A stretch of DNA of 64,000 bases. Source: Planctomycetota bacterium. Lineage in GTDB: Bacteria; Planctomycetota; Phycisphaerae; Sedimentisphaerales; Anaerohalosphaeraceae. Made by a program: the position numbers and the translations under genes. Positions 3,974 through 32,830 of the stretch are shown here, piece after piece. The notes under the pieces were generated by a model. That model searched no databases. It was not told the DNA's origin and was given only the letters and a program-made list of their open reading frames with translations. The stretch covers positions 1-64,000 of the forward strand of contig VGXU01000003.1 of NCBI GenBank assembly GCA_016873215.1, given 5' to 3'. The number at the start of each line of letters is the position of its first letter. Position 1 is the first letter of the stretch.

Positions 3974-4165
3974 AGCAGCGGCAAGCGCAAGCGAGCCGAT
4001 TTTTTCTCAGCCCGTAAGGGCGACATAGTGTAGCCACGGGCGCCAGCCCGTGGAAATCGATAAGAAAATCCCCAGCCCCCACAGGGGGCGACATAAAATA
4101 GCCGGGCGTGTAAACGCCCGGAACCGATTCTCTCACTCCCCCCTTTAAGCCCCAGCGGGGCGACA
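3974..4165. repeat. dispersed planctomycete-type intergenic repeat, copy 1
   Basis: The 335-bp gap after leuS holds a chain of small palindromes and no gene. It starts with a GC-rich block containing GGCAAGCGCAAGCGAGCCGA (3980-3999). Then come CAGCCCGTAAGGGCGACATA, CCACGGGCGCCAGCCCGTGG (a near-perfect palindrome), a GCCGGGCG...CGCCCGG stem and GCCCCAGCGGGGC. The same order of blocks occurs again at 8128-8258, and the first block recurs inverted at 58801-58827. The role is unknown. The stems could act as mRNA 3' structures for leuS. Confidence 0.75.
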
Positions 4166-26521: not shown

Positions 26522-26538
26522 CGCACTCACGTCCTTTT

Positions 26539-27039
26539 TTAAGCTTCAATCTGTACGCCGCGAAGAGTTTCTACCGTTTCTTTGTTGCGTAATTTCAGCA
26601 ACCCGTTCATCACGGCTTTAACCACATTCTTGGGCGAACGGCTGCCATAGACTTTGGTCAGCACATTTCGCACCCCAGCCAGTTCCAACACCGCTCTGGC
26701 GCTGGAGCCTGCGATGACGCCGGTTCCGGGACCGGCCGGAAGCATAATCACATCCGTCGCCCGGCACTTGCCATGTACCTCATGCGGCAGAGAATCATTG
26801 ACAACCGTGATTTTTTTGAGGTTCTTTTTAGCATCCTTGATCGCTTTTTCTACGGCCGGGGGCACTTCATTGGCTTTGCCATACCCTATGCCCACCGTTC
26901 CGTTACGATCGCCGACCGCCACCAATGCCGCGAAGCTGAACCGTCTTCCGCCTTTAACCACTTTGGCATTGCGAAAGACTTTCACCACCGCATCTTCCAG
27001 CGTCCCTTCGCCATGCATTTCTGTTCTGTCTTCAGCCAA
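26539..27039 (-). CDS. rpsE: 30S ribosomal protein S5 (uS5)
   Basis: Accuracy-related protein of the small subunit. The 166 residues include FRNAKVVKGGRRFSFAALV, VGIGYGKANEVPPAVEKA and PAGPGTGVIAGSSARAVLEL. The N-terminus is a short acidic extension. Order rplR-rpsE is standard. Confidence 0.97.
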   Translation of the reverse strand: MAEDRTEMHGEGTLEDAVVKVFRNAKVVKGGRRFSFAALVAVGDRNGTVGIGYGKANEVPPAVEKAIKDAKKNLKKITVVNDSLPHEVHGKCRATDVIMLPAGPGTGVIAGSSARAVLELAGVRNVLTKVYGSRSPKNVVKAVMNGLLKLRNKETVETLRGVQIEA

Positions 27040-31026: not shown

Positions 31027-31905
31027 TTAGTTGTTTTCCGCCGGGCCGGTTTCATTACGAGGCTCAGCCGTTTCTTCCACTGCCGGTGCTGAAGCCGGAG
31101 CAACGCGGGCATGCGACGTATCCTGACGGGACCGTCGACCTCTTGCCGCACCACCACCTCTTGCCGTACCGCCACCATCCCTGCCGCCACCGCTGCCATC
31201 CCTGCCTCCACCACTGCGTCCCTGACGACGAGGTCTGCCGCCACCGCCAGTCGGAACTATGACTTCCTCGCCGAATTTACCTTTGTAAATCCACACCTTG
31301 ATGCCGATGCACCCGTATGTTGTCACCGCAGTGGCGGTGGCGTAATCCACGTTGGCATCGAGCATCTGCAGCGGAATTGAACCCTTTTTCTGGCATTCGC
31401 TGCGGGCGATTTCCGCACCGCCGAGACGACCGCCGATAATAATCTTGACTCCTTTGGCCCCGGCATTCAGCGCGTTTTCGCAGGCCATTTTCATCACGCG
31501 GCGAAACGCCGCGCGTTTTTTCAGTTGCTCGGAAATACCCTCCGCCACCAATTTGCTGTCCAGCGAAGGCTCTTTAATCTCTATCACATTGATGTTAACC
31601 TTACGGTCAATGAGGCTTTCGACCTCTTCCCGCAGCTTATCGACTTCGGCGCCGCGCGGGCCGATGACCATCCCCGGCCGGGCGGTATGCAGGGTTATTT
31701 TCACTTCATTGCGGGTACGGGCGATTTCCGTCTTGGCCACCGCAGCATAAGGGGGCTGACGATTAAACTTCCTGTCAACAAATTCACGGATACGATCGTC
31801 TTCGACAAGAAACTCGCCATAGTTGGCCTTGGGAGCAAACCATTTACTCTGCCAGTCCAGCGTAATTCCCGTTCTGAACCCGATTGGTGATGTTTTCTGA
31901 CCCAT
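31027..31905 (-). CDS. rpsC: 30S ribosomal protein S3 (uS3) with a long Gly/Arg tail
   Basis: mRNA-entry protein with helicase activity. Residues 1-210 are a normal S3: MGQKTSPIGFRTGIT, KH domain with VIGPRGAEVDKL and the C-domain up to IKVWIYKGKFGEE. Beyond that about 75 residues form a low-complexity RGG-like tail (GRSGGGRDGSGGGRDGGG), then an acidic end. Similar basic S3 tails occur in some bacteria, but this one is long and resembles RNA-binding RGG boxes. Confidence 0.96.
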   Translation of the reverse strand: MGQKTSPIGFRTGITLDWQSKWFAPKANYGEFLVEDDRIREFVDRKFNRQPPYAAVAKTEIARTRNEVKITLHTARPGMVIGPRGAEVDKLREEVESLIDRKVNINVIEIKEPSLDSKLVAEGISEQLKKRAAFRRVMKMACENALNAGAKGVKIIIGGRLGGAEIARSECQKKGSIPLQMLDANVDYATATAVTTYGCIGIKVWIYKGKFGEEVIVPTGGGGRPRRQGRSGGGRDGSGGGRDGGGTARGGGAARGRRSRQDTSHARVAPASAPAVEETAEPRNETGPAENN

Positions 31906-31923: not shown

Positions 31924-32472
31924 TTAAAATTCCGTTACGGTCACATGAATATGGCTGGCCTGCTTGCAGATGGGATGCGCCCGTCCGCGGTCTTTGGCTC
32001 GCCAGCTTTTTGTTCCAATGCGTCTGCCTGCGCCATCGGCGTGAATCTCAGACACATACAAATTCTCCACATCCGCTTCCTGCTCATCCGCATTGGCAAT
32101 GGCAGCCTTGAGCGTCTTACAGACCGCCTCGGCGGCCCGCTTGGGAGTAAACTTCAAAATATCCAGCGCGTCCTGCACATCGCGGCCGGCAATTAACTGC
32201 GTCACCAGACGGACTTTGCTGGGCGACATCGGCGCGTAACGATAACTTGACTTCCATTCGGATATCGCGGAAACTTCCACCCCCAAGACGTCAGCGAGAC
32301 GTTTTATGTCTTCTTTGCCCGGAAGCGGATTAAACAGGCCTTTTTGCCAGTTCTTCACCGCCGTCAGGGCCGCGTCGCGATCCATTCCTCCGTGAACGAG
32401 ATGTTCCGCCAGAGCCTGAATGGTTACGCCCTTTTGTTTTGCCGCCTTAAAAAACTTTTTTGAATTCAACAT
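31924..32472 (-). CDS. rplV: 50S ribosomal protein L22 (uL22) with an N-terminal HTH-like domain
   Basis: Residues about 76-182 are an ordinary L22, whose loop lines the exit tunnel: YAPMSPSKVRLVTQLIAGR, FTPKRAAEAVCKTLKAAIANA, then GRAHPICKQASHIHV. Before that lie about 75 extra residues resembling an XRE-like helix-turn-helix (VTIQALAEHLV, then DIKRLADVLGVEVSAISEW). The long start is supported by AAAGG eight bases before ATG 32472, while no ribosome site precedes the internal ATG at MSPSK. From memory, L22 proteins with an extra N-terminal domain are annotated in other planctomycetes. Confidence 0.95.
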   Translation of the reverse strand: MLNSKKFFKAAKQKGVTIQALAEHLVHGGMDRDAALTAVKNWQKGLFNPLPGKEDIKRLADVLGVEVSAISEWKSSYRYAPMSPSKVRLVTQLIAGRDVQDALDILKFTPKRAAEAVCKTLKAAIANADEQEADVENLYVSEIHADGAGRRIGTKSWRAKDRGRAHPICKQASHIHVTVTEF

Positions 32473-32545
32473 CGTTTTAACCTTTGAAACACGCCGGTTT
32501 TGCCGGCTGAAAAATCTTTACTTACATCCGGTTGCGCCGCGGCCG

Positions 32546-32830
32546 TTAAGCGGGCGCCGCCGCTTCCGCCTTGTTGCCGGAATGTCCGCGGAAGGTACGG
32601 GTGATGGAAAATTCACCCAGCTTATGGCCTACCATATCTTCGGTCACAAATACCTTGTGAAACATTTTTCCGTTATGCACCATAAAAGTGTAGCCGACAA
32701 ACTCCGGTATAATCGTGCAGGCACGAGTCCACGTCTTAATCGGTTCTTTTCTGCCGGACTGAATCTGCTTCTGTACTTTAATAAACAGCTTCTGGTCCAC
32801 ATAAGGCCCTTTTTTTTGCGAACGTCCCAT
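32546..32830 (-). CDS. rpsS: 30S ribosomal protein S19 (uS19)
   Basis: Head protein contacting S13 and tRNA. The 94 residues start [15 protein letters not shown] and include [18 protein letters not shown] and [17 protein letters not shown] short alanine-rich tail ends it. Confidence 0.97.

Follow-up and report, generated by a model that had tools for sequence, protein, structure and literature searches.

Ribosomal protein uL22 carries an N-terminal Cro/C1-like helix-turn-helix head in Sedimentisphaerales and two further families of Phycisphaerae

Introduction

Few proteins of the bacterial ribosome are as constrained as uL22. A uL22 gene that opens with a repressor-like domain raises two questions: is the added part made as part of the protein, and what would it do on the ribosome? 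Such a gene lies in the window, the stretch of 64,000 nucleotides of planctomycete DNA analysed here. An original prediction, made from the letters of this DNA, proposed that an XRE-type DNA-binding fold precedes a normal L22. We confirm that the protein is a uL22 with an N-terminal helix-turn-helix (HTH)-like head. The uL22 and Cro/C1 folds are each known; no literature on an L22–HTH fusion was found in a search restricted to open-licence papers, which also yielded no relevant proteomics literature and no ribosome structure or binding data for these bacteria.

Results

The fused uL22 gene (rplV; 31924..32472, minus strand) has an ATG start and encodes 182 aa. It is flanked by S19 (32546-32830) and S3 (31027-31905) within an ordinary S10-spc-alpha operon, and it is the sole L22 gene of the genome. 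The Pfam family Ribosomal_L22 (PF00237) matched residues 77-179 (the uL22 core; 31936..32244, minus strand) with an E-value of 2e-29 and 102.2 bits against a cut-off of 28, placing the protein within uL22, and TIGR01044 scored 89.2 bits against a cut-off of 73.65. Structures of E. coli-type uL22 superposed on the model only from residue 71 onward; since the E. coli-type chains begin there, approximately 70-73 N-terminal residues are extra. The predicted length of about 75 additional residues was thus borne out, residues 1-73 being extra and the Pfam match beginning at residue 77.

Elsewhere in the window, uS3 (31027-31905, minus strand; 292 aa) has a long Gly/Arg-rich C-terminal tail, no space is left for uL30 in its usual place between S5 (26539-27039) and L15 (26072-26530; the junction is 26530-26539), and an Acido-Lenti-1 RNA match was detected at 4074-4121 on the minus strand (46.8 bits against a gathering threshold of 37).

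A Shine–Dalgarno-like AAAGG (32481..32485, minus strand) lies 8 nt 5′ of the uL22 ATG, and this ATG is the first codon in all 80 rows of an alignment of relatives (A6), in agreement with the ribosome site originally proposed. Under a loose motif rule, an AAGGTT-like motif was found upstream of the gene in 41/80 relatives. Head and core share one reading frame and an identical junction throughout the 80 rows. It could be argued that the real start is internal, such that the head is untranslated or cut off and an ordinary uL22 reaches the ribosome, and the protein from the window does contain a methionine at position 82, where the short form beginning with MSPSK would start. However, just 45 of the 80 relatives have Met at residue 82, and codons 66-80 hold no ATG, GTG or TTG in 50 of the rows, the gene in the window among them. 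Moreover, starting at residue 82 would delete the first uL22 strand (residues 71-80; 32233..32262, minus strand), which follows helix 5 without a linker and is retained in relatives without the head, and codon use in the head shows protein-level selection (see below). An internal start is accordingly hardly credible, and these sequence patterns indicate that the fusion is translated as a whole.

The head (residues 1-73; 32254..32472, minus strand) was modelled using AlphaFold2 with a pLDDT of 94.8 when folded alone and 89.3 within the full protein. The head model shows helices at residues 4-14, 18-27, 32-43 and 53-63; the full model shows helix 5 at residues 67-70. According to DSSP of the model, the HTH proper (32344..32421, minus strand) is formed by helix 2 (18-27), a long turn and helix 3 (32-43). 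The original prediction was therefore correct in part regarding the motif: its LAEHLV falls within helix 2, while LADVLGVEVSAISEW, taken to be the remainder of the HTH, corresponds to helix 4 (residues 53-63) and helix 5 (residues 67-70), at 32263..32316 on the minus strand.

The top structural match of the head model was C.Csp231I (4jqd_E; VIA Z 10.2, 70 residues aligned, rmsd 3.2), and CylR2 (2xiu_B) gave a VIA Z of 9.7 with an rmsd of 1.8; SinR and P22 c2 were also among the matches. Foldseek returned an E-value of 0.07 at best, with a probability of 1.00. Among 43 head members, Pfam matches at E ≤0.1 were obtained to HTH_31 (25/43), HTH_3 (24/43) and HTH_19 (16/43), with best member E-values of 5.7e-7, 9.2e-7 and 8.4e-8, respectively. 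The head encoded in the window itself scored below the Pfam gathering thresholds (HTH_3, 12.2-14.6 bits against 23; HTH_31, 12.7-14.5 against 27), and for this reason we call it a divergent member of the Cro/C1 (XRE) group by fold only. A profile search of solved chains with the head also retrieved TniQ (E 3e-4). Together, the matches of the relatives and of the model support a five-helix Cro/C1 (XRE) fold for the head, as had been proposed.

The window belongs to the order Sedimentisphaerales, within the class Phycisphaerae, and the full fused protein matched 112 of the 118 Sedimentisphaerales genomes. In 107 of these 112 the alignment ran from residue ≤7 to ≥179; three genomes (G063, G069 and G209) aligned only from residue 30-35, the head there being seen by eye, and two were interrupted by contig ends. 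Inspection of 141 uL22 loci, two of which (L001 and L032) are one gene so that the order counts 50 genomes, found the head in all 50 genomes of the order, in 8/8 loci of family f9 and in 2/2 loci of family f24. Sixteen other Phycisphaerae families, represented by 80 loci, all lack it. A head profile (A2, 43 rows) used to scan 392 genomes of the phylum, with at most 14 candidates scored per genome, matched 24: 11 from the order, nine from f9, two from f24 and two weakly. The 22 firm matches are uL22 fusions and the two weak ones (E 6.7e-5 and 7e-4) lie in other frames, so that no firm match to a stand-alone head was obtained among the candidates scored. In a scan of named genomes with at least 436 relatives, the 80 top-ranking ones all carry the whole head, or the head from residue 2 onward (L207). 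Their labels include Phycisphaerae, Sedimentisphaerales and other planctomycete metagenome-assembled genomes, with one Candidatus Kuenenia, and these labels point to Sedimentisphaerales as the order of the window. L22 fusions in other planctomycetes, which the original prediction had mentioned, do therefore exist, but the locus inspection and the profile scan place them within the class Phycisphaerae only.

Conservation within the head is uneven. Besides M1, the residues N41, W42, P51 and W73 are invariant in 80 rows, and the most conserved stretch is KNWQKGLFNPLP (residues 40-51; 32320..32355, minus strand), which contains three of them. Entropy per position is 0 bits at N41, W42 and P51 and 0.2 at P49 and L46, and A35 and A38 are likewise nearly unvarying; residues 31-34, 36 and 37 reach 1.9-3.0 bits, with A35 lower. 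Thus the end of helix 3 and the loop that follows (KNWQKGLFKPxP) are conserved, whereas the start of helix 3 is variable. Because this variable start is the predicted DNA-reading part, the head looks unlike a sequence-reading transcription factor. The helix 2–turn–helix 3 unit is also longer than standard, the added residues lying between LA (21-22) and NW (41-42) in comparison with CapH (7t5u), and in the full model helix 5 is directly continuous with the first uL22 strand, so that there is no room for a dimerization segment. The head consequently departs from canonical XRE regulators both in helix 2–turn–helix 3 spacing and in the conservation of DNA-reading residues. Taken together, the long helix 2–3 unit, the variability of residues 31-34, 36 and 37 and the lack of a dimerization segment would favour a contact or scaffold role over operator reading.

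Mean pairwise identity across the 80 rows is 50% for the head and 73% for the core. Between close pairs, dN in the head was well below dS, for example 0.024 versus 0.231, 0.03 versus 0.37 and 0.028 versus 0.44, and by this measure of codon change the head is under purifying selection. Its net charge averages +3.4 and ranges from -2 to +10.

To trace the fusion, a tree of 47 taxa was built from 16 ribosomal proteins, with FastTree supports. The head-bearing groups do not form one clade on this tree: f24 is sister to the head-less family f23 (support 0.86), and f9 joins f23 and f24 (support 1.0). Over the same 47 taxa, Fitch parsimony required three changes and Dollo parsimony one gain and five losses. 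A tree of the heads, rooted at its midpoint, separates f9 and f24 from the order (supports 0.86-0.92) in agreement with the ribosomal-protein tree, and the uL22 core of f24 is closest to that of f23 (62.5%); these data do not favour the idea that the fused gene spread horizontally in recent times. A single ancient fusion within Phycisphaerae, followed by about five losses and kept in the order and the two families, fits these data best, and the head may alternatively have been gained three times independently.

Two further ribosomal features were compared with the distribution of the head. The tip of the uL22 tunnel hairpin (residues 146-160; 31993..32037, minus strand) has three extra residues specific to the order, reading VDGAGRRIGTKxW in all order members examined and VDEGPTMKRF in the rest of the class. 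A link between this insertion and the head was rejected, as the head-bearing f9 and f24 are without it. A three-residue L22 insertion is present in a Deinococcus 50S structure (PDB 4u67), and on this basis the response of the order to antibiotics may be altered. For 23S rRNA, 13 head-bearing and 28 head-less sequences were aligned with that of E. coli and lengths were compared per 20-nt window. The best separation was found at E. coli positions 1401-1420 and 1481-1500 in domain III (AUC 0.12-0.13). However, the shortening is common to head-less families (f23, f8, f18 and others) and a head-bearing member of f4 (G081) is long, so that this candidate link too was rejected. As an observation in its own right, E. 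coli 23S positions 1467-1525 of domain III, which we take to be H58, are much shortened in many Phycisphaerae with or without the head (L246 and others).

Discussion

What might a Cro/C1-like head do on uL22? The reading that we prefer, and to which we give about an even chance, is that the head is an added contact module steadying the exit region of the 50S subunit. Because the only uL22 of the cell is fused, every 50S should carry the head. From the structure of uL22 and its single copy, the head would be placed on the solvent-side globular end of the protein, where it could touch nearby rRNA backbone and/or bL32, bL17 and uL29, and such contacts might steady the assembly or stability of the exit-side 50S. 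uL22 is described as contacting bL32 and bL17 (PMC4881015). In a study of E. coli pre-50S particles, uL22 joins early on the solvent side, adjoining bL32, and lies near the exit pore together with uL23, uL29 and bL32; in its absence domain III is hindered and domain IV misfolded (PMC11723945). A further study places the HTH of EDF1/Mbf1 between h16 and h33 of 18S rRNA (PMC7486125). It was this position and early binding of uL22, together with a Cro/C1 domain held by rRNA in EDF1/Mbf1, that led us to a contact module. Counting against it are the modest and variable charge of the head and the lack of any 23S rRNA length change that tracks the head among the 13 head-bearing and 28 head-less sequences. 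The usual job of the Cro/C1 fold, DNA binding, also counts against it. The head evolves faster than the core and, by parsimony, was lost about five times, which indicates that it is not essential in general.

Feedback of ribosomal proteins on the S10 operon is established for E. coli L4, and the head has a fold known from repressors of phages and plasmids; among the chains it matched, several were solved with operator DNA. Free uL22 might therefore use the head to bind DNA or mRNA and repress its own operon outside the ribosome. We consider this quite unlikely, given that the N-terminal part of helix 3, normally the DNA reader, is the least conserved part of the head, that the helix 2–turn–helix 3 unit exceeds the canonical length, and that helix 5 enters uL22 directly with no separate dimerization segment. 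Alternatively, the head might act at the tunnel exit as a docking site for a lineage-specific partner such as a chaperone, a targeting factor or an enzyme acting on nascent chains. Cro/C1 domains do act as protein-binding modules in some proteins, and the proximity of uL22 to the exit pore noted above would suit this role; against it, no partner was found and the sister families lost the head without a known loss of partner, which leaves docking unlikely, if reasonable. More broadly, it is doubtful that the head is truly regulatory, whether by sensing or binding nucleic acid or nascent-chain factors at the exit tunnel or by repressing the S10 operon as free uL22; were it so, a repressor domain would have become a permanent part of the ribosome.

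The faster evolution and the repeated inferred losses could also be expected of a nearly neutral surface accretion with no role of its own. Purifying selection, the four residues N41, W42, P51 and W73 fixed in 80 rows and retention of the head over an entire order speak against neutrality, making it very unlikely. A repressor-derived domain kept order-wide on uL22 illustrates how ribosomes gain protein modules, and its retention in some sister families and loss in others offers a natural case for studying additions to the ribosome surface near the exit tunnel. It also cautions that an HTH match on a ribosomal protein does not necessarily imply transcription control.

The fusion can be set against several known systems. 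With bacterial uL22 (PF00237/TIGR01044) it shares the core at residues 77-179, the operon position, the single copy and the fold (VIA Z 19.3 to 9h91_S), to which it adds the folded head of 73 residues and the three tunnel-hairpin residues. PRK12279 (NF008917), a fusion of L22 with an unknown domain described by a 311-position model, is likewise an L22 with an added part, but our protein scored 45.5 bits against its cut-off of 526, matching through the L22 part alone, and falls outside that family. The head has the fold and core motif (LA...NW.kG...P...D...LA..L.V) of C.Csp231I, SinR, P22 c2 and lambda CI; it differs from these Cro/C1 repressors in its longer turn and helix 3, its variable reading positions, its fusion to a ribosomal protein and its lack of a dimerization part of its own. 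Eukaryotic and archaeal MBF1/EDF1 resembles the head in having a Cro/C1 HTH that acts on the ribosome, where rRNA holds it in place (PMC7486125). Unlike the head, MBF1/EDF1 is a separate small-subunit factor that acts near collided ribosomes and is reported to be absent from bacteria, and the fused uL22, with its HTH–uL22 architecture, contains no MBF1 or zinc-ribbon part according to Pfam and so does not belong to this group. Finally, residues 7-76 of HppE, an otherwise unrelated enzyme, are Cro/C1-like and superpose on the head (Z 9.0), showing that this fold has been put to use outside repressors.
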